Assembly (NCBI GenBank): GCA_937931785.1
Contig: CALHAX010000004.1
Coordinates: 1 to 50,951, forward strand
DNA from: an uncultured Hyphomicrobiaceae bacterium
Lineage (GTDB): Bacteria > Pseudomonadota > Alphaproteobacteria > Rhizobiales > CALHAX01
DNA length: 50,951 nucleotides
Direction: 5' to 3'
How positions within the stretch are numbered: position 1 is the stretch's first letter; every line of letters starts with the position of its first letter. Shown one piece after another: positions 1,921-27,662 of the stretch. The notes under the pieces are model-generated. The model was not told the DNA's origin. It saw nothing but the letters and a program-made list of their open reading frames with translations, and did no database searches. Both the position numbers and the translations under genes were made by a program.

Positions 1921-2865
1921 TCAATGCCATGGCCGCAGAATCCAGCGCATCCATTTCGGACGCGGCGACAGGCGAGTCTCACGAAACACAATATAGAGAC
2001 CAGACGCCGCAACAATCGCCGCCCCCACGACCGTGAATTGGTCCGGTGTTTCATTCCAGATCAGATAGCCAAACAGCATCGCCCACAGCAAAGCGGTGTA
2101 GTTGAAGGGAACAAGAATTGCGACATCTGCAAACCGGGAGGCACGTGTGCGCAACAATTGTGCGATGCCGCCCAGGATACCGATCCCGGCCAACATCGCA
2201 AAATCCAGCGGCCCAGGCGTTGCCCAGTAAAACGGTAACACGACAGCCGCACATATCGTCGTGGTCATTGTAAAATAGAACACGATGGACTCAGTCGTTT
2301 CAGTGCGTGTCATCTTGCGAACGTAAATCGTGGTGACACCGATACAGGCTGCTCCGAACAAGGCGAGCAAGGCCACAGGCTCGAACGCATGACTGCCAGG
2401 CCGCACGATAATCAGAACGCCAATGAAGCCAGCCAGAACAGCTCCCCAGCGATGCGTCCCCACTTTTTCTCCCAGCATGGGCACAGACAGCGCAGTTGCA
2501 AACAGCGGCGCGGCAAATGTGATCGCCACCGCATCAGACAGTTTCATGGATGTGTAGGCTGTGAACACGGTCACCATGGCGAGGACACCCACAAGCGAGC
2601 GAATGATATGACCATTCAGGTTGACCGGCTTGAGTGCGCTCCATCTCCCGGAGCGCCAAACGCTCCAGGCGATTGGAAGAAGAGCAAAAACACTGCGAAA
2701 GAATACGATCTGAACGACAGAGAAAGCCGCGCCCTGCCATTTGACCAGCACATCCATGAGCGAAAACAGGGTGACGGCGCTGAATGCAAGCGCGATCGCC
2801 ACAGCAACACCGTGACGGGGACTCGATTGGGTAGATGAAGACCGCGACGCGGCGGCGAATGACAC
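1921..2865 (-). CDS. EamA/DMT-family permease (copy 2)
   Basis: A 314-residue integral membrane protein with about ten hydrophobic helices and the EamA duplication. Recognisable segments are AVTLFSLMDVLVKWQG in helix 1, AITFAAPLFATALSVPMLGEKVG closing the first half, and FNYTALLWAMLFGYLIWNETPD closing the second. The pattern matches bacterial DMT-superfamily efflux permeases; the transported compound is unknown. The start is a GTG at 2865 with only a weak GAAAG upstream, so the first few residues are uncertain. It is the first gene of a two-gene minus-strand unit with the paralogous permease downstream. Tandem pairs may act separately or as heterodimers; the sequence does not decide. Confidence 0.87.
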   Translation of the reverse strand: MSFAAASRSSSTQSSPRHGVAVAIALAFSAVTLFSLMDVLVKWQGAAFSVVQIVFFRSVFALLPIAWSVWRSGRWSALKPVNLNGHIIRSLVGVLAMVTVFTAYTSMKLSDAVAITFAAPLFATALSVPMLGEKVGTHRWGAVLAGFIGVLIIVRPGSHAFEPVALLALFGAACIGVTTIYVRKMTRTETTESIVFYFTMTTTICAAVVLPFYWATPGPLDFAMLAGIGILGGIAQLLRTRASRFADVAILVPFNYTALLWAMLFGYLIWNETPDQFTVVGAAIVAASGLYIVFRETRLSPRPKWMRWILRPWH

Positions 2866-2991
2866 AGCTCAAACTTTCAGGACAAACGTCTCGAAACGCA
2901 AGCTTTAACTCTGCAGCAAAAAAGAGCAATGCGTAAGGTGTGGCAGCTCACGTCGGGCATGCACACACAGCATGGCATGGTCGTCGATGTA

Positions 2992-3183
2992 TCAGTTTAG
3001 AGATACATTTTCGTCAGTTAGCGCAAGGTACCGTCGTGCATTTTCAATTTCAGCGCGAACAACAACCAGTGGGTCAGGACACAAGACTTCGTTGGTAGTT
3101 TCGGCCATATCAAGCACACGCAACGCCTGCGTGAGGTTCTCCAGCGCCTGGGATGTCGGGGAGCGATCAAGACCATCAAGCAT
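2992..3183 (-). CDS. Small hypothetical protein (63 aa)
   Basis: A short gene with a strong GAAGGAAAA ribosome site placed correctly before the ATG at 3183. The product is acidic and predominantly helical (two amphipathic stretches, around residues 11-28 and 43-55) and has no signal or membrane segment. I do not recognise a family. Codon use resembles real genes and there is no competing frame. It is divergent from the methyltransferase at 3451. The 270-base gap between them holds a Crp/Fnr-type palindrome at 3261-3286, which may control either gene. Confidence 0.6.
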   Translation of the reverse strand: MLDGLDRSPTSQALENLTQALRVLDMAETTNEVLCPDPLVVVRAEIENARRYLALTDENVSLN

Positions 3184-3260
3184 CGCGGTTTTCCTTCAAA
3201 TCAGTTGGAATTGACGCGATACAAATCTCTTGTTTGAGCTATATGCCGAAGAAGGGAGGC

Positions 3261-3286
3261 AAAAATGTGATGTACGTCACATTTTT
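3261..3286. promoter_or_regulatory. Crp/Fnr-type palindromic operator
   Basis: Ten-base arms AAAAATGTGA and TCACATTTTT are perfectly complementary around a six-base centre. The core TGTGA-N6-TCACA at 3266-3281 is the classical Crp half-site pair with Crp spacing. It lies between the small minus-strand gene (start 3183) and the methyltransferase (start 3451), 75-83 bases upstream of the former. Binding by the Crp-family regulator at 19414-20100 is possible but not shown. Confidence 0.7.
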
Positions 3287-3450
3287 GCGGAACTCCACCA
3301 AACAGTCATATGACGCGACTGGCCAATGAAACCAGACAATGTCTTGTCATCCCGTGTGTTCTGTTCAACCTTGCGACAAGGCTGAATCAAAGAATTTCCA
3401 ACAGCGACCAGGCCCTGAAGTCTTGAACGCAGAGATGAGAGATCAGGCCC

Positions 3451-4092
3451 ATGACAGAAAGAAAATCATCGTTCCTCGACGCCGCATATGGTTTCAGCGA
3501 CACCGACACGTCGGAGAAGATCAAGGCGCACTACGATGCCTGGGCGTCACATTACGACGCAGAACTGGTCGACCAACAGCAGTATGTCATGCCAAGTCGA
3601 GCAGCGGCGGCCATCGCCTCGCATTGTACTGAAAAAACCGCATCCATCCTCGATATCGGTTGCGGAACAGGTTTGTCGGGCAAGGCACTCGCTGATCGTG
3701 GGTTTAACACGATCGACGGTTGCGACCTCAGTCCCGGCATGCTGGCGAAGGCCGCCACTCTCGACATCTACGGTCGTCTGTTCGAAGCGGACCTCACCAA
3801 ACCGCCGCTTGATGCAGCAGACGCCAGTTACGACATCATGACCGTCGTTGGCGCGTTCAGTTTCGGCCACATCCCTGTTGATGCCATGGACGACCTTTTG
3901 CGCGTCATCAAACCAGGGGGTCTGTTTCTCATCACCACAAACGATCACTACTACGATGAGGGAACGATCCAGCCAAAACTCGATCAACTTGTTGCGGATG
4001 AAATGGTCACAATGCTGATGGCGGAACACGGTGCCCATATCGAAGGATTGAATGTCAGCGGATGGGTTTTTCTCATGCGCAGCACCACCTAG
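3451..4092 (+). CDS. Class I SAM-dependent methyltransferase
   Basis: A 213-residue Rossmann-fold methyltransferase. Motif I is ILDIGCGTGLSG (about residues 66-77). It is followed by GCDLSPGMLAKA for the acidic loop that binds the ribose, an ADLTKP motif, and a PGGLFLITTN strand near residue 150. The N-terminal IKAHYDAWASHYD is typical of the family that includes the WBSCR27-like enzymes, which methylate small molecules or proteins of mostly unknown identity. The start has a GAGAG-rich leader. It stands alone on the plus strand, divergent from the 63-aa gene, with a Crp-type palindrome upstream and the tct operon downstream. The substrate is unknown. Confidence 0.88.
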   Translation: MTERKSSFLDAAYGFSDTDTSEKIKAHYDAWASHYDAELVDQQQYVMPSRAAAAIASHCTEKTASILDIGCGTGLSGKALADRGFNTIDGCDLSPGMLAKAATLDIYGRLFEADLTKPPLDAADASYDIMTVVGAFSFGHIPVDAMDDLLRVIKPGGLFLITTNDHYYDEGTIQPKLDQLVADEMVTMLMAEHGAHIEGLNVSGWVFLMRSTT

Positions 4093-4276
4093 GACATTGT
4101 GCAATGCAACATTCCCATCCTCGCAACGCAGCATTCACAATATGCTTGTTCGTCACATTTTAAGCCGCTAGCTTGGCGCATCAGTCGTGGCACCCACAGA
4201 AGGTCGCCCGATGGATCAGTCTGGCCGGAGCGGGCGCTTATGCCTCCCAACCGGCCGTCAATATTTGGGAGGACTC

Positions 4277-5305
4277 ATGACATTTAGAACCAAGACAACT
4301 GCAGGCATTGCCACATTCGCAGCTACACTTATGCTCAGTGGAGCCGCTTTTGCAGCGCAATGTGAAACAGCAGATATGGCCGCCATGGACAAGCCTGGTG
4401 GTTTTCCAGAACGCGCGCTGACCATGATCGTACCTTATGGCCCGGGTGGGGGCTCAGGCCAGGTTGCAAGAGCGATGGCCGAAGCCGTCACAGCGGTTAC
4501 CAAAGTCAACATCAACCGTGATCACAAACCAGGTGGTTCCGGCACGGTTGGCATGACAGCCTACATGGCGACACCAGCTGACGGCTACAATGTGCTCGAG
4601 CACATTGATGATGCCTCCTCGGCACATGCTCTTGACTCGTCCAAGCCAAATCCAGCTGAAGACCTGATCCCGCTGGTCACGTCACAAGTCACGTTCTCGC
4701 AGGTTTACATCCGCACGAACGAAACACGCTTTACCGACTGGAAGTCGTTCGTTGCGTGGGTGAAGGCCCAGGGTGGCAAAGCGTCCATTGCCAACGTCTC
4801 CAAGGAAGGCTCCATGGAACGCGTTTCGATGAAGTTCATCACAGACGCAACCGGCATGGAAATCCAGCAGATTTCGTTCGATAAAGGCGCTCCACGTTAC
4901 GGCGCGCTGCTCGGCGGACAGGTGGATGCACTTTTTGAACAGCCAGGCGACGTGCGCAAGTTCCTCGATGCTAAAAAGTTCAAGCCAATCCTGACGATCT
5001 TCAGCGAACGCCCTGCAGCGTTCCCTGACACACCAACACACGTTGAAGAAGGCATGTCCTTCGCCCCGCTGGTCCGTTTCCGTGGCTTCTACGTTCACGC
5101 AAAGGCTCCAGCTGATCGTGTGAAGTGGTTGCAGAACGCATTCCAGCGCGCTTACTGCCATGACAGCTATGTCGCATACAACAAGTCCAAGTTCATGGAT
5201 GCGATCCCAAGCTATCGTGACACAGCAGGTTCGAAAGAGCTGATCACGAAGACAATCGGTCAGTACCGTGAAGTCTACAAGGCTATGGGCCTGAAAGTGA
5301 AATAA
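4277..5305 (+). CDS. tctC: Tripartite tricarboxylate transporter substrate-binding protein
   Basis: The periplasmic receptor of a TctABC-type transporter, which delivers a carboxylate to the TctA/TctB membrane pair. I chose the ATG at 4277 because GGGAGGA lies directly upstream; the longer frame from 4187 has no such site. The protein is 342 residues. A clear signal peptide is present (TTAGIATFAATLMLSGAAFAA, residues about 7-27), and the TctC hallmark follows as PERALTMIVPYGPGGGSGQVARA. The C-terminal region carries the usual conserved blocks. It leads an operon with tctB and tctA and is separated from tctB by a strong hairpin. The ligand cannot be read from sequence. Confidence 0.92.
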   Translation: MTFRTKTTAGIATFAATLMLSGAAFAAQCETADMAAMDKPGGFPERALTMIVPYGPGGGSGQVARAMAEAVTAVTKVNINRDHKPGGSGTVGMTAYMATPADGYNVLEHIDDASSAHALDSSKPNPAEDLIPLVTSQVTFSQVYIRTNETRFTDWKSFVAWVKAQGGKASIANVSKEGSMERVSMKFITDATGMEIQQISFDKGAPRYGALLGGQVDALFEQPGDVRKFLDAKKFKPILTIFSERPAAFPDTPTHVEEGMSFAPLVRFRGFYVHAKAPADRVKWLQNAFQRAYCHDSYVAYNKSKFMDAIPSYRDTAGSKELITKTIGQYREVYKAMGLKVK

Positions 5306-21442: not shown

Positions 21443-21566
21443 CTCGCATTGCGCTCCAAAGGCACCACGGTTCGGATATCTACAGGAAGTCGCTAACCCA
21501 GCCTTGCGGGCAAGACAATGGTCAGGGACAATCGCACAAGCGAACGATGTTGCGAAGATCATCATC

Positions 21567-21580: not shown

Positions 21581-23623
21581 GTGCGCGGGGACACGCACAA
21601 AAAAATCCGACCGGGCTACGGCCCAACGCGTACAATGCAATACTGCATCGGCGCACTGCGTTCGGCTGTCCTGCTTACAGCCCTTGTAATCTTCGCCAAC
21701 TTCACCGTTCCCCGTGCAACGCACGCTGCAGACACACCCCCACGCGCCGTTGTCATCTTCGATGGTTCAGGCTCCATGTGGGGGCGCATTGGCGCACAAA
21801 CAAAGTTCGAGGTCGCACGAACGTCGATGGCCGCGATACTCCCCAGCTATAACCGGCAAATCGCACTTGGCCTGATTGCCTATGGTCATCGCCGCAAGAG
21901 CGATTGTAACGACATCGAAGTGCTCGCCCCTCCTGAAGTCGGCCTTGCCGGTGATATTGTGGACAGCATCAATGCCATGCGTCCACGCGGAAAAACTCCC
22001 ATCGCGTCTGCATTGGAAAGTGCCGCAACCCTTCTGGTGGACACCGAGGCAGGCCACATTATCCTTTTGACTGACGGGGCCGAAAACTGCCGCAAGGATT
22101 TGTGCGAGACCGTGGATGCCATCCGCGAAGCCTCTCCACGTCTCACCATCAGTACAATCGGCTTGGGTCTGCGCAACCGCGACGTGGCACGCGTGCAGTG
22201 TGTCGCCAAGAGTGGGGGTGGCCGGATGGTTCTGGCCAGCACAAAGGACGAACTCCGAGACGGATTACTCAATATTCTCGACGATGTCGCATCTGGCGTG
22301 ACCTTCGCGCCGCCTCTGGTCACAAACGAACAACCGGTTGCCGTCGCTCTGCCTGCCGAACCTGTCGGTCCGCCCATTCTGCAACTGCGCGCCCTTCAGG
22401 CACAAACCGGTCCATTGATTGAGGACGAGGTCCACTGGCAGGTGACCCGCGTCGATGGATCATCTCCAGAAACGATTTACGCGAAAAACAGCATCAGCCC
22501 CGATGTGGAAGTCCCAAACGGACAGTACCGTATTGAAGCGCGGCTGGGTCCGGCAACAGCAGCACGCGACATCACAATCTCGCAAGGTGGTGCAAGATCT
22601 GTCCACGTGCCAATGAATGTTGCCCGGATTGATCTGCAGATGGCGGCTCCATTGTTGCGCGGCGAGACTATTGCCATTGTGCAGACGAGCCCCAGCGGTG
22701 ACGTTCAAATCCCACCTCGCCTCGTCACCGGGCGGAATGTGACAAGTGAGCGGTTTTTCTTGCCTCCAGGAGACTATACCATCCGCCGGGACGGAACTGC
22801 AGTCGGAGAAACACGTTCCGTATCGCTGCAGGCCGGGGACAACGATGCGCTGACATTCGACACCAGAATGGGCACGCTGAAACCACGCATGAAAGACACG
22901 GCACTGACTGGAGTTGAGGGCGCGTTTCTCCACATCGTCCAGCAGAAATCTACGGGTAATCCTGACACATGGCGGGAAGTCGCCCGCTCCGCAGCCTTAA
23001 CCCCTTCATTTGCATTACCAGCAGGAGCCTACAGACTTGTCTCACGTGCAGGTCGAGCAGAAATGCGACAAGCTGTAACCGTTGCGGCAGGCCAGGTCGC
23101 CAAACCGGAAATTTTTCTCCCGGTCGGCAAATTGAAATTATCAGCAATCGATCTGTCTGGTCGCACACTTCCATCACCGTTGCGGTATGTGGTGACGCCA
23201 ATGGGAAAATCGTCTGGCACCCCGATCAGAACGAACAGGTCAAACCCGACACTTGTTGTGTCTGCAGGCACCTACAAGATCGAGGCGACCGCAGGCTACA
23301 CCAACGTGAGGGCAATCACGGAAGTCACACTCGCTGCCGGAGCAGAGGAACCGGGCGAAGTGTCCTTCAATCACGCCCGGCTGAAATTTTCTATTGAGAA
23401 AAAAGACGGCGCCGCGCTCCCACGGAATATCTCATGGCAGGTCACCACGCCAACCACTGACGGCACATCGCGCGTCCTTTGGAATGGCAATCGCAATACT
23501 TCGGAACTTGCGCTGGCCCCCGGACAGTACACCATCATAGCCCGCATCGAAGATCGTGCGACAACCCGGCGCGTCACACTTTCAAGTGGGGAAACGCAGA
23601 CGATCACATTGCCGCAGCCGTGA
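21581..23623 (+). CDS. Exported von Willebrand factor A protein with intact MIDAS
   Basis: 680 residues from the GTG at 21581. A signal peptide with a long basic start ends near THAAD (about residue 50). The VWA domain covers about 55-250. The metal-ion-dependent adhesion site is complete: DGSGS (Asp61, Ser63, Ser65), GKTP (Thr139) and LTDG (Asp165). Paired cysteines occur in SDCND, AENCRKDLC and VQCVAK. The C-terminal 400 residues are repeated beta-rich units of roughly 90 residues, each ending near a pattern like GxYxIxA (for example NGQYRIEARLG, AGTYKIEATAG, PGQYTIIARIE). This is probably a periplasmic or surface binding protein. A shorter paralogue follows after 287 bases. Confidence 0.85.
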   Translation: MRGDTHKKIRPGYGPTRTMQYCIGALRSAVLLTALVIFANFTVPRATHAADTPPRAVVIFDGSGSMWGRIGAQTKFEVARTSMAAILPSYNRQIALGLIAYGHRRKSDCNDIEVLAPPEVGLAGDIVDSINAMRPRGKTPIASALESAATLLVDTEAGHIILLTDGAENCRKDLCETVDAIREASPRLTISTIGLGLRNRDVARVQCVAKSGGGRMVLASTKDELRDGLLNILDDVASGVTFAPPLVTNEQPVAVALPAEPVGPPILQLRALQAQTGPLIEDEVHWQVTRVDGSSPETIYAKNSISPDVEVPNGQYRIEARLGPATAARDITISQGGARSVHVPMNVARIDLQMAAPLLRGETIAIVQTSPSGDVQIPPRLVTGRNVTSERFFLPPGDYTIRRDGTAVGETRSVSLQAGDNDALTFDTRMGTLKPRMKDTALTGVEGAFLHIVQQKSTGNPDTWREVARSAALTPSFALPAGAYRLVSRAGRAEMRQAVTVAAGQVAKPEIFLPVGKLKLSAIDLSGRTLPSPLRYVVTPMGKSSGTPIRTNRSNPTLVVSAGTYKIEATAGYTNVRAITEVTLAAGAEEPGEVSFNHARLKFSIEKKDGAALPRNISWQVTTPTTDGTSRVLWNGNRNTSELALAPGQYTIIARIEDRATTRRVTLSSGETQTITLPQP

Positions 23624-23910
23624 ACCCTGACGGCGAATGACGGTGTATAAAATCAGCCCCTGGTCGAATGCCCCCAGTGCAACACAAGCGTGTGGCGTTC
23701 TGAACACCCTTTCCCATCAAACTCAATAATCACGCCACACTGGTTCCATATTCGAAACCGCTTATGTAGGCCCTTGTTCATGGAATGCGCTGGCGTTACG
23801 TCACGCACGTCAAATTGGGCAGGACGCACGCGTTGCGTTAAGCTACCCAACGATTGAAGCCGTCGATGATTCTCTGGTCGTCGAACCTGAAGTGAGCCTT
23901 GTCCAACCCC

Positions 23911-25467
23911 ATGCTGCGCCATCTGGCTATCATCTGCTGTGTCGCGACACTCGGGTTCGCCCTCCAGCCCGTGCCGTCTTTCGCCCAGTCTGCTGAAGCG
24001 CCCGCCGTGGGAATTCTCATCGATTCTTCCCGCGCAATGGCAAGCAAGCTCAACGGTGCCAGCAAAACCGCACTGGTTGGCAATGCGCTGGCGACCAATT
24101 TCGTAAAATATGATGGCAAATTGAATATGTCGCTTGCCGTCTTCGGGCATGAAAAACGCGAGGGATGCTCGGCGGTTGACGTGGTGCAGGACCTCGAGCC
24201 CCTCCGCGCGACGACGTTTGCCAGAGCGCTCGTCAATCTCAAGACGGTCGGAGTGGCGCCACTCGCCCTTGCGCTGGAAACCATGGCGACATCCCTGGTG
24301 GAAGACGACAACGCCCGGGATTTGATCGTAATCACCACCAGTCGCGATAGCTGCAAGCGAGATCCATGCAAGATCGCGGCAAAAATCAAACGCCGGCAGC
24401 CAGACCTCCGCATCAATATCATCGGTATTGATGATCCGAATTCCGGTACACTCAACACACTGCGATGTGTCGCCGATCAAACTGGCGGAAGTTTCATGGT
24501 GCTCGCCGATGAAACGGATCTGACAAACGCAATCGACCAGACAATCAATACTGCGCTGTCCGGACGGCGCACTGCGATCCTGCCAGACGTGAACACACCA
24601 GATACAGGACTGGTGCAGCCAAAGGAAAACGAGAGCACATCCGGTTGGTCTATCGAACCTGAAGAACAGGCTACAAAGCCGGAACCGGAAGCTCCCACTA
24701 TTCCCGGGCAGGGCACCATCCGTCTCGTTGCATTGCTGACGGATGGTCAAAAACCAATTCCAGCGGGTCTGACCTGGCGTGTCTTCGCCACAAAGAAGGC
24801 CGCGGATGGAACGCATCCTCTGTTGAGTGAACAACGCGACTGGGCACCCGTTCTGCAACTCCCGGCGGGAGAATATCTTGTAAATGCTGCTTACGGTCGA
24901 GCACATCTGACCCGCAAGATCCGCGTTACCGAAGGCGCACCACGGGTTGAACAATTCGTTTTGCAGGCAGGCGGTTTGCGCCTGCGTGCCGTCGATACCC
25001 AGAACAGGCCCGTGCGCAGCAATGTCACGTATAGCGTACTCAGCGGCGATCGCGACCAGTACGGTAACCGGAGAACTATTATTGCCAACGTACGCCCAGG
25101 CCTGATTGTGCGTCTGAATGCCGGCATCTACAATGTGATCAGCCGGTACGGAGATGCGAACGCCATTGTCCAGACCGATGTGACGGTAGAGCCCGGAAAA
25201 CTCACACAGATTGCCATGACCCACATTGCAGGGACCGCAACATTCAAGCTGGTCTCACGCCCAGGCGGAGAAGCAATTGCCGGAACGCAATGGAGTATCC
25301 GCACACCCGATGGTACGGAGATCAAGCGCTCTCAGGGCGCCTTGCCAAGTCACATTCTTGCGCCTGGAACATATCGCGTTTTCGCAACACTCGGTGGCCG
25401 CACGTTTGGAGGCCAGTTCCTGATCGATGCGAACGAAAACAAGCAAATCGAAATCGTGATCAAGTAA
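23911..25467 (+). CDS. Exported VWA-like paralogue with degenerate MIDAS
   Basis: 518 residues from the ATG at 23911; a TTG at 23899 is also in frame. The signal peptide ends near SFAQS. The fold and cysteine pattern match the upstream VWA protein (EGCSA, RDSCKRDPC, LRCVAD). The metal site has changed: the DGSGS motif reads DSSRA (38-42), the GKTP threonine is Ala116, and the LTDG aspartate is Thr143. The C-terminus keeps three of the beta-rich repeat units (AGEYLVNAAYG, AGIYNVISRYG, PGTYRVFATLG). It may have kept a structural or partner-binding role without metal binding. The gene is intact, with no frameshift, so this is not simple decay of the reading frame. Confidence 0.82.
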   Translation: MLRHLAIICCVATLGFALQPVPSFAQSAEAPAVGILIDSSRAMASKLNGASKTALVGNALATNFVKYDGKLNMSLAVFGHEKREGCSAVDVVQDLEPLRATTFARALVNLKTVGVAPLALALETMATSLVEDDNARDLIVITTSRDSCKRDPCKIAAKIKRRQPDLRINIIGIDDPNSGTLNTLRCVADQTGGSFMVLADETDLTNAIDQTINTALSGRRTAILPDVNTPDTGLVQPKENESTSGWSIEPEEQATKPEPEAPTIPGQGTIRLVALLTDGQKPIPAGLTWRVFATKKAADGTHPLLSEQRDWAPVLQLPAGEYLVNAAYGRAHLTRKIRVTEGAPRVEQFVLQAGGLRLRAVDTQNRPVRSNVTYSVLSGDRDQYGNRRTIIANVRPGLIVRLNAGIYNVISRYGDANAIVQTDVTVEPGKLTQIAMTHIAGTATFKLVSRPGGEAIAGTQWSIRTPDGTEIKRSQGALPSHILAPGTYRVFATLGGRTFGGQFLIDANENKQIEIVIK

Positions 25468-25574: not shown

Positions 25575-26165
25575 TCAAGCGACGCTGAAGTCGGCGATGA
25601 ACTGGGCTGTCTGCGCTCGATCATCCCAGGCAACAGGCGTCAGCATTGATGGGTCGTGCAAAGCATTGGCCATGTAACCCGGATTGGCATCCAGCCAGAG
25701 GGAGCGGCTCAATCGGCGACCGTCCTGCGTTTCAATATTAAAACGCACTTCAGCATTCTGTGGCAAAGCCGTGACGAGTTGTCGTTCGTCCACGGGCGCA
25801 ACAGACCACCACGTATGCAGACCGAACACACCGTCATCGTCAGTCCACACCCCCATCCAGTCCGGTGCTTCCCAGGATTGGACATCAATAACCGAGGTGG
25901 AACCACTAGGTTTCCAGTCACGCACACGGTGCTGCATGATTTCCACGTAAGCACGCTTCTCCGGCATGCCGTGACTGTTCGTAATGCGTCCTGCGATGCT
26001 GATCAGCCCGGCTGAATCGGTTGTGGCGCTTGCAGACAGCCCAGCTTCAACAACACCTGGCAATGCGGTAATAGCGATGCCAGCCGCTCCTGCAGCACCA
26101 ACGCCAGCAACAAAAGAGCGACGGTTCATCGCTCCAGTTTGCATAGCAGTATTCTTGGGATTCAT
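25575..26165 (-). CDS. Tat-exported protein resembling intradiol ring-cleavage dioxygenases
   Basis: 196 residues from the ATG at 26165, which follows AGGTGA; an ATG at 26180 lies too close to its GGAGG. MNRRSFVAGVGAAGAAGIAI is a twin-arginine signal (Arg15-Arg16). The mature part begins ISIAGRITNSHGMPEKRAYVEIMQHR, and a WTDDDGVFGLHTWWSVAP block follows. These match the beta-sandwich of the intradiol dioxygenase or carboxypeptidase-regulatory-like families (G-x-V-x-D-x-x-G-x-P-x-x-x-A-x-V-E-I-W-Q and D-x-D-G-x-F). The iron ligands (two Tyr, two His) are not evident, so catalysis is doubtful. A 12-base direct repeat lies in its upstream region. Confidence 0.5.
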   Translation of the reverse strand: MNPKNTAMQTGAMNRRSFVAGVGAAGAAGIAITALPGVVEAGLSASATTDSAGLISIAGRITNSHGMPEKRAYVEIMQHRVRDWKPSGSTSVIDVQSWEAPDWMGVWTDDDGVFGLHTWWSVAPVDERQLVTALPQNAEVRFNIETQDGRRLSRSLWLDANPGYMANALHDPSMLTPVAWDDRAQTAQFIADFSVA

Positions 26166-26201
26166 ATCTTTCACCTGCATTCCTCCAGTTCACGACATAG
26201 G

Positions 26202-26379: not shown

Positions 26380-27264
26380 ATGACCCATTTCATCACCGTG
26401 ACGAACCGCCGGGGTGGCGTTGGCAAAACAACAACAACATCAATGCTGGCCTATGCCTATGCCGTAATCGGCTTCCAGAAAGTGCTGGTCATTGATTTCG
26501 ACGCGCAATCCAGCACGTCCATTACGCTGCTTGGCCATGAGCGCTGGAAAAACGCGCGCATGGAAACGCGTACGGTCGCCGGCCTCTTGCGCGCGCTCTA
26601 CAGCGACACCCCTCCGGACATTTCCCGCTACATTTCTCATCAGGCTGGCGACGTTCACATCACACCCGGCAATCGCGCACCGGAACTCTCGGTCATTCCC
26701 GGATCCTTCGCTCTTGATGATACGGAACGCGAAATGCTGTTGACGCACTACGCCGGTCCGGCAGGTGCGCAAGGGACGGACCTTGCAAGCATTTTCTCAG
26801 ATATGCAGCAACGGATCACGAACCTAATTAGAAAGCTCGACGGCCTCTACGACGTGGTCATCATGGATTGTCCCCCCGGTCTCTCGAACGTCGCATGGGG
26901 CGCGGTGCAAGCTGGCGATTTTATCGTCGTGCCCTATGTGCCAGACGCAACTGCGGAAGATAATGTTGGCTGGTTGGTCAACCGACTGGAGACAATCGAA
27001 CGCGGCAAGAAAATCCGCTTGCTCGCCAATCGCGTCCGCATGAACAATCCATATCAGCGTGGCATCATCGACAGTATCATGGCGCGCTATCCTTCATTGG
27101 GCATCGTGATGCCACAGCGTGCCGCAATCGAGGGAGCATTGGAGTTCCGTGCAGCTCCGCAATCACTCAATCAGAAGTTTGGCGATGGTCGCCCGATCGT
27201 CGAAGAGCTCTTTAACGCAATGCTCGCATGGGTCGAAGATACTGGAGTCAGGGCCGCATCATGA
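26380..27264 (+). CDS. ParA/MinD-family ATPase with altered signature lysine
   Basis: A 294-residue P-loop ATPase. The deviant Walker A is RRGGVGKTT (Arg11 to Thr18). The usual KGGxxK signature lysine is replaced by Arg11 while the second lysine (Lys16) is kept. VLVIDFDAQSS is the A' motif and VVIMDCPPGLSNV the switch II/Walker B region. The C-terminal PYVPDATAEDNVGWLV and the long basic region fit chromosome- or cargo-partition ATPases rather than MinD, since no amphipathic tail is seen. A small gene overlaps its stop codon. No ParB or centromere-like parS sequence was noticed, so it may position a protein cargo instead of DNA. Confidence 0.88.
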   Translation: MTHFITVTNRRGGVGKTTTTSMLAYAYAVIGFQKVLVIDFDAQSSTSITLLGHERWKNARMETRTVAGLLRALYSDTPPDISRYISHQAGDVHITPGNRAPELSVIPGSFALDDTEREMLLTHYAGPAGAQGTDLASIFSDMQQRITNLIRKLDGLYDVVIMDCPPGLSNVAWGAVQAGDFIVVPYVPDATAEDNVGWLVNRLETIERGKKIRLLANRVRMNNPYQRGIIDSIMARYPSLGIVMPQRAAIEGALEFRAAPQSLNQKFGDGRPIVEELFNAMLAWVEDTGVRAAS

Positions 27265-27662
27265 GCAATGAAAAAAAGAAACCTGACGATCATCTCGAAG
27301 CGGTTTTCAAGACTGTCATCGACGAAGCACGCAACAATCCAGCGTTTGCGAAGCGGATCCAGGCAGCATTGGCAGGTAAAGGAGAAGGTAAAGCAAAACC
27401 GCGCGTACCACAGCATTCTGAAACTCCGCACACACCCGACGTTCACGCCGTCAACATTCTCCGCCAACACGGAGAACAGATGCTTCGTGGGCGACTTTCG
27501 AATCTGCGCACCAAGGCCGACTTACTTGCAGTAGCCAAACGCTCGGGCCTTCGCCTCACTGGCACAGCCGCAAAGAAAAACGCCTCCCGCCCGGATATCA
27601 TTGACGGAATCGTCATCGCAGCACATCACTACGACAGCCAGCGCGAGGCTGCAGAAGGATAG
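27261..27662 (+). CDS. Small partner of the ParA-like ATPase, SAP/Rho-N-like C-terminus
   Basis: 133 residues from the ATG at 27261, which overlaps the upstream stop as ATGA, so the two are translationally coupled. The N-terminal helix (about 12-37, with NNPAFAKRIQAALAGK) is amphipathic. A charged, proline-containing linker follows. Residues 80-125 contain LRTKADLLAVAKRSGLRLTG and PDIIDGIVIAAHHYD, which resemble the helix-extended-loop-helix of SAP or Rho N-terminal modules that bind nucleic acid. This similarity was judged by eye. No known family name is assigned. It may be the adaptor that the ATPase moves, or a DNA tether. Confidence 0.72.
   Translation: MSNEKKKPDDHLEAVFKTVIDEARNNPAFAKRIQAALAGKGEGKAKPRVPQHSETPHTPDVHAVNILRQHGEQMLRGRLSNLRTKADLLAVAKRSGLRLTGTAAKKNASRPDIIDGIVIAAHHYDSQREAAEG

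Follow-up and report, generated by a model that had tools for sequence, protein, structure and literature searches.

The window analyzed here, i.e., the whole 50,951-nucleotide stretch of contig CALHAX010000004.1 from an uncultured Hyphomicrobiaceae bacterium, harbors two adjacent genes, P0001 and P0002, which code for exported-looking proteins made of a VWA domain followed by a beta-rich C-terminal part (Table 1). P0001 lies 287 bases upstream of P0002 on the same strand and possesses a complete metal ion-dependent adhesion site (MIDAS), most of which is lost in P0002. A first-pass annotation of this DNA had described the second gene as a copy with an almost fully lost metal site in an intact frame of 518 codons, and the frame is indeed open over that whole length. 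The two proteins are homologous in both parts, sharing 26% identity (E value 5e-23) in a segment that runs from the VWA domain into the beginning of the C-terminal part, and 27% (4e-12) in the C-terminal part (BLASTP); within its own genome, the matches of P0002 are confined to this pair. In the following, the counterparts of P0001 and P0002 in other genomes are referred to as P1 and P2.

The alignment of the two proteins places D38, S40, A42, A116, and T143 of P0002 opposite D43, S45, S47, T121, and D147 of P0001. All five MIDAS residues are kept in P0001 and two out of five (Asp38 and Ser40) in P0002, which does not conform to the D-x-S-x-S, Thr, and Asp signature. The replaced residues are those named in the annotation (loop-1 Ser to Ala42, Ala116, and Thr143); three of the five are gone, and the expression "almost fully" was an overstatement, as Asp38 and Ser40 remain. 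The cysteine pattern that the pair was said to share is confirmed for the VWA domain, where four out of four cysteines align (C91, C152, C157, and C189 of P0001 with C86, C148, C153, and C186 of P0002). The Pfam model PF00092 recognizes P0001 (E 4.4e-9, 37.2 bits), and P0002 falls below the 23.8-bit cut-off (E 2.2e-4, 21.9 bits). On the basis of its predicted fold and of its homology to P0001, P0002 is nonetheless a VWA protein. A Pfam VWA search of the genome to which the window belongs retrieved four other places (L001–L004) and missed both P0001 and P0002, though P0001 passes a direct scan.

Table 1. Features of the P0001–P0002 pair (positions refer to the window)
Feature	Position	Strand	Remarks
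P0001 (P1), 662 amino acids, exported-looking, VWA domain with complete MIDAS	21635..23623	+	start codon chosen for the signal-peptide-like stretch after it; the listed open reading frame (ORF) starts at 21518
P0001 VWA domain, residues ~34–218	21734..22288	+	MIDAS D43, S45, S47, T121, D147
P0001 C-terminal beta-rich repeats, residues ~245–662	22367..23620	+	predicted secondary structure
P0001–P0002 intergenic gap, 287 bases	23624..23910	+	
P0002 (P2), exported-looking protein, 518 amino acids	23911..25467	+	ATG at 23911, stop ends at 25467, 518 codons open
P0002 likely Sec signal peptide, residues 1–26	23911..23988	+	called by eye; predicted local distance difference test (pLDDT) below 50
P0002 VWA domain, residues ~31–212	24001..24546	+	damaged MIDAS
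P0002 MIDAS loop 1, residues 38–42	24022..24036	+	Asp38 and Ser40 retained, Ser replaced by Ala42
P0002 Ala116	24256..24258	+	at the position of the MIDAS loop-2 Thr
P0002 Thr143	24337..24339	+	at the position of the MIDAS loop-3 Asp
P0002 linker, residues ~223–264	24577..24702	+	residues 223–253 predicted to be disordered (pLDDT below 50)
P0002 conserved C-terminal module, residues ~265–518	24703..25464	+	read as three beta-sandwiches; order-wide part

The model predicted for P0002 has a mean pLDDT of 87.4, with ten-residue blocks at 86–97 in the VWA domain (one at 81) and at 86–98 in the C-terminal part, and values below 50 for residues 223–253; the predicted template modelling score is 0.52, and the relative placement of the domains is unsure. 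This model bears out the beta-rich C-terminus that had been proposed. The predicted VWA domain superposes on 4fx5 (Z 23.5, root mean square deviation (rmsd) 1.9, 175 residues) and has the Rossmann-like fold of the family; the TFIIH subunit 4wfq (Z 22.5, rmsd 2.2, 177 residues) and many further VWA domains were matched as well. Since the P0001 model (mean pLDDT 82.1) retrieves the same structural neighbors, with Z 22.2 on 4fx5, these matches report the fold and not the state of the metal site. The plain Foldseek search, which was run with the P0002 model only, gave the pilus adhesin SpaC (6m48) as its top row (E 6.5e-15); the structural (VIA) alignment to SpaC covers residues 24–518 of P0002, with a loose joint fit (rmsd of about 50). 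Sequence searches against solved structures gave no matches, either with the P2 alignment or with P0001. The C-terminal module lies below every Pfam cut-off in P0002 and in the five P2 relatives scanned, and a CarboxypepD_reg match in the C-terminal part of P0001 is slightly below its own.

P0002 has matches in 371 of the 397 genomes sampled from the order Hyphomicrobiales and is, therefore, no single-genome oddity; homologs across the order also speak against a chance open frame, and pairs in other families against a P0001/P0002 pairing unique to one genome. Among the best matches listed, the first 29 (the window's own aside) span most of P0002, and nearly all the later ones cover only residues ~200–518. 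At the level of the class, 15 out of 86 sampled genomes match P0002, including that of the window and one other from its order, the latter matching C-terminally (E 2e-35); the remaining 13 match through the VWA domain or weaker stretches, with a best E value of 4.5e-24 over the VWA. Hyphomicrobium, Methyloceanibacter, and Sinorhizobium, all of them Hyphomicrobiales according to the taxonomy, are among the named matches in the best 80 of 584. P2 has a gene of the nitroreductase family on one flank and one resembling threonyl-tRNA synthetase on the other in both Methyloceanibacter methanicus (L087) and Sinorhizobium medicae (L118); the pair in the window is flanked by a nitroreductase gene and thrS too, the latter being separated from P0002 by ParA-like, imelysin, DUF1513, and further genes, and by eye the same flanking layout occurs in Mesorhizobium (L135). 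These common flanks support the view that the P2 forms with and without a VWA are orthologs. With regard to sortase or pilus genes next to the pair, the six window neighbors scanned with Pfam are nitroreductase, ParA-like, DUF1513, imelysin, thrS, and one without a match, the others being assigned by eye. No paper on the P0002 family was recognized among the titles retrieved from the literature, and the tandem pair, the order-wide C-terminal module, and the repeated, apparently Thr-first loss of the MIDAS are new to us.

The state of the MIDAS was compared over 110 loci, which represent the best matches to P2 and not a random sample (121 loci, corresponding to 111 distinct C-terminal sequences, with the 193-residue fragment L111 excluded). 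The loci were found through P2 searches, so P1-only loci would escape, and P1 was counted only beside P2. A MIDAS was scored as intact allowing for Ser/Thr exchange at positions 2–4; the strict count is lower for L040, L050, L054, L065, L066, L068, L069, and L070. According to these rules, the P2 VWA domain has a full MIDAS at 17 loci and a damaged one at 15, and it is missing from the frame at 78, including L108, where it lies in the next frame. The annotation had named relatives with a full MIDAS in the second copy as an observation that would refute its reading; such relatives do occur and make up 17 of the 32 VWA-bearing P2 rows (14 if no Ser/Thr exchange is allowed), though the damaged state is also widespread. 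Where P2 is damaged, P1 is intact at eight loci, absent at five, and devoid of a VWA at two; where P2 is intact, P1 is damaged at two, intact at two, and absent at 13; and where P2 lacks the VWA, P1 is damaged at 28 (L106 by an alignment gap, L108 with the split P2), intact at two, and absent at 48. The loci without P1 include short contigs, e.g., L037; at the 48 lacking both VWA and P1, a tblastn search up to 4.5 kb upstream, within the available stretch, found no VWA. As for the split genes, the P2 of L108 (Methyloceanibacter marginalis, 2492–4380) changes frame where its VWA domain ends, either genuinely or through a sequencing error, and the P1 of L169 (1920–3950) is distributed over two frames.

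The loop-2 Thr of a MIDAS is involved in its ligand-competent state, and this is the residue most often missing. All six P2 rows with a single loss (Ser/Thr exchange allowed) have Ala in its place, as does the split P2 of L108; it is missing from 14 of the 15 damaged P2 rows, the other one, L050, carrying Ser there. Likewise, it is lost in 26 out of 27 single-loss P1 rows, being replaced by Gly in 24, by Ala in L040, and by Met in L054, and the 27th (L106) has a gap at the Asp. The 24 replacements by Gly (L057–L064, L089–L098, L100–L102, L105, L107, L109, and L110) accompany a VWA-less P2 and belong to one Hyphomicrobium-like clade. Under the strict rule, L068 shows a single change outside the Thr (loop-1 Ser to Thr), and L069 and L070 a Thr to Ser change. 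Twenty further loci were kept outside the 110, at least four of which (L171, L172, L173, and L184) repeat L106, L123, L126, and L085; among the twenty, the Thr alone is missing in L182 and L183 (P2) and in L166, which is truncated by the contig end, and the other damaged rows repeat counted contigs (L171 as L106, L184 as L085). Since the rows are related, the Thr-only losses count as only a few events, and the outcome depends on the counting rule; with this in mind, the loop-2 Thr was apparently lost first among the MIDAS residues.

On a tree of the C-terminal module, built with a careful method from 82 of the 110 rows (with 20 of the 48 lacking both VWA and P1), the P2 MIDAS state changes five times among the VWA-bearing rows, the presence of the P2 VWA nine times, and the P1 MIDAS state twice. 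Hence, MIDAS residues have been lost more than once, in both P1 and P2. We infer the direction of these changes because the deepest split of this tree has intact P2 sites in each of its two halves, the counts of changes giving no direction by themselves. A VWA tree was built with a quick method, keeping the MIDAS columns and leaving out P1 of L106; here, the P2 domains of the window, L078, and L045 group with a support of 97 and are all damaged, and the P1 domains of the same three loci group with a support of 88 and are all intact. The five MIDAS positions of P2 read D, S, A, A, T in the window, D, S, R, A, G in L078, and E, S, S, A, T in L045, and the P2 proteins of the window and L078 are 39% identical. 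If this grouping is right, the damaged state would be old. A damaged P2 beside an intact P1, the combination whose conservation the annotation would have taken as support for a functional role, is found again in the distant relatives L078 and L045, but the pairing is not essential, many loci having P2 without P1 in the available stretch.

The pairwise ratio of nonsynonymous to synonymous divergence (omega, Nei–Gojobori) was computed for 20 rows, some of them (e.g., L033–L035) outside the 110; it was incalculable for two identical pairs (L019/L083 and L028/L084) and for two saturated ones, and several values of synonymous divergence (dS) are near or at saturation, including those of L012, L015, and L023. 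For the VWA domain, omega ranges from 0.031 to 0.059 in the Methyloligella-like damaged rows (dS 0.63–1.70), from 0.050 to 0.372 in the Methyloceanibacter-like damaged rows (dS 0.15–1.77), and from 0.112 to 0.135 in the intact rows; with respect to the latter, it is lower in the Methyloligella-like rows and higher in most Methyloceanibacter-like pairs. The closest pairs of the Methyloceanibacter-like clade give 0.050, 0.091, 0.103, and 0.216, the three closest rows falling at 0.050–0.103 and the other pairs at 0.196–0.372. The corresponding ranges for the C-terminal module are 0.015–0.041 (Methyloligella-like), 0.022–0.243 (Methyloceanibacter-like), and 0.046–0.134 (intact rows). The damaged VWA domains are constrained, strongly in the Methyloligella-like clade and less so in the Methyloceanibacter-like one, and this purifying selection in two other lineages makes the decay of a dead gene unlikely. 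Retention without a metal site, as the annotation had it, agrees with the open frames and the selection on the VWA in the damaged lineages, but the decoy role suggested there is without support. Selection on P0002 itself would be expected by extension from those lineages, none of which is close to the window.

Taken as a whole, we consider it somewhat probable that P0002 uses its VWA head, independently of metal, for a structural or docking purpose and that the C-terminal module keeps a conserved job, the gene not being a dying one. The protein is a member of an order-wide exported family built around the predicted module of three beta-sandwiches; some lineages add to this module an N-terminal VWA head that was probably metal-binding in the ancestor, if the direction of change is as proposed above. 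The head has lost its MIDAS repeatedly, apparently starting from the Thr, and in other lineages it is gone altogether. In that of the window, the fold appears to be retained without a usable metal site, the head most likely serving as a structural or docking part in the cell envelope, and P0001, homologous across both parts, would keep the metal-dependent binding. Several observations weigh against this reading. The grouping of the window with L078 and L045 has a support of 59 in the joint P1+P2 tree (from which the P1 MIDAS columns, P1 of L106, and L108 were left out), and the C-terminal tree does not resolve the place of the window. Moreover, three rows within VWA-bearing clades, L099, L103 (Methyloceanibacter), and L104, carry the C-terminal module and no detectable VWA; these are likely natural deletions of the head, which is thus dispensable there. 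In the Methyloceanibacter-like clade, evolution is faster in the VWA than in the C-terminal module (e.g., 0.267 vs. 0.121), which fits relaxed constraint, and no close relative of the window was found (one genome in its family; single-sequence contig scan). Finally, out of 40 conserved positions outside the MIDAS, the P0002 VWA retains 24, a tie for the lowest value among the 15 damaged rows, which is compatible with either decay or long divergence, and the retained Asp38 and Ser40 could bind metal weakly.

Some of these observations are also what one would expect if the head were a relic heading for deletion, whose persistence is due to selection on the C-terminal module. The 78 of 110 loci whose P2 frame has no VWA, the nesting of the VWA-less L103 in a damaged Methyloceanibacter-like clade, the frame change of L108, the higher omega of the VWA in that clade, and the few conserved positions left in the window would all agree with such slow decay; however, the VWA omega is well below 1 in every computable pair, and the P0002 VWA keeps its four cysteines, an open frame, and a confidently predicted fold, so that we regard this outcome as rather doubtful. 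A rebuilt site on the same face, binding another ligand or metal through the retained Asp38 and Ser40 with Thr143 and Ser144 as potential ligands, appears very improbable, since the five positions vary among the window, L078, and L045 and no new conserved site is seen.

A partner role of P0002 with P0001 is plausible. In one form of this idea, the two proteins would form a complex via their homologous modules, in which one metal site is enough and the other drifts. The genes are adjacent and homologous across both parts, and among the 12 loci with two VWA domains (L108 excluded) only P1 is intact at eight, only P2 at two, both at two (one under the strict rule), and neither at none. INTS13–INTS14 would be a precedent, as these two proteins also have a VWA followed by a beta domain (6sn1, Z 20.2 for the P0002 model) and form a heterodimer in which, according to the excerpt of PMC7347597 used here, the MIDAS pocket of one VWA, that of INTS14, does the binding; it differs in being a human nuclear complex, the pairing of P0001 with P0002 being putative. 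Against such a complex, the two-VWA pattern is not significant (Fisher p 0.09) and its rows are related; three further two-VWA loci, in which P2 has Ser instead of Thr, keep both sites intact, and P1 is split in a fourth, L169; and 61 of the 110 loci, some on short contigs, have no P1 beside an intact or VWA-less P2. Furthermore, there are loci without any intact MIDAS, i.e., five with a damaged P2 and no P1 in the available stretch, two with a damaged P2 and a VWA-less P1, and L065 and L066 with a damaged P1 and a VWA-less P2. The metal site is, therefore, not always required, a strict rule of one intact MIDAS per locus fails, and the complex seems to us unlikely. Equally tentative is the idea of a stepwise switch-off, which would begin with the loop-2 Thr (whose loss would take away a single direct ligand of the metal and spare the others), proceed to the Asp or Ser, and end with the whole head, repeatedly and in either member of the tandem, the fold remaining under selection and the P1/P2 pair being asymmetric, with one metal site sufficient.

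As to known systems, 46% of VWA-family domains contain a MIDAS, as given in an excerpt of PMC6509490; domains without one are thus common, and a metal-less P0002 VWA would be ordinary in kind. Next after 4fx5 among the matches of the P0002 model come TFIIH chains, from p34 or the corresponding yeast subunit (4wfq, 5ivw, and others), and the p34 VWA is described as unlikely to bind metal in the portion of PMC4094531 considered, which attributes the disruption of its MIDAS to a helical insertion; TFIIH differs in being a eukaryotic nuclear complex, and the match is uninformative on the metal site, since these chains are equally matched by the model of the intact P0001. The pilus adhesins SpaC (6m48), RrgA (2ww8), PilB (7b7p), and Mfa5 (6tnj, 6to1) combine VWA and beta domains in one surface protein, with a domain order (VWA head, then an Ig/Cna-like beta stalk in the adhesins) like that of P0002, although the joint fit is loose. 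For Mfa5, an excerpt of PMC7835359 reports a complete MIDAS, in which two Ser and a Thr bind the metal directly and two Asp via water, together with an isopeptide bond. An isopeptide-bonded pilus stalk was set aside for P2, as the 36-row P2 alignment has no Lys column that is invariant or nearly so; some rows may still use a Lys of their own. In the excerpts at hand, McaA of Magnetospirillum has a signal peptide, a periplasmic VWA, and a transmembrane domain and needs an intact MIDAS (PMC9512821), and the MIDAS of Bd0875 is also required (PMC11003981). McaA shares the VWA and, probably, the signal peptide with P0002, which has lost most of the MIDAS. Candidatus Liberibacter asiaticus belongs to the same order as the organism of the window. 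Its VWA proteins, as far as PMC3399792 is excerpted here, each keep the MIDAS and have an N-terminal TadE/F-like domain, in both of which they differ from P0002.

The two tandem paralogs offer, within one order to which laboratory species belong, a natural series from an intact MIDAS through single-residue and fuller losses to absence, in which the function of a VWA without metal and the sequence of site loss can be tested; they also point to an uncharacterized exported beta-sandwich module in most of the order genomes examined.

Within the P0001–P0002 gap, a single promoter-like match (23701–23730) is not above the level of shuffled sequences. Opposite P0002, a 523-codon antisense ORF extends over positions 23653–25224 on the minus strand, and similar antisense frames occur at many loci; these frames are probably shadows of codon usage. 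P0002 is adjoined on the minus strand by a gene for a 201-residue protein (25575–26180) that has no Pfam match at E 0.001 and, by eye, a Tat-like start. A ParA-like gene and a small gene follow at 26380–27662, between P0002 and thrS, and both families adjoin the pair in L039 and L040.
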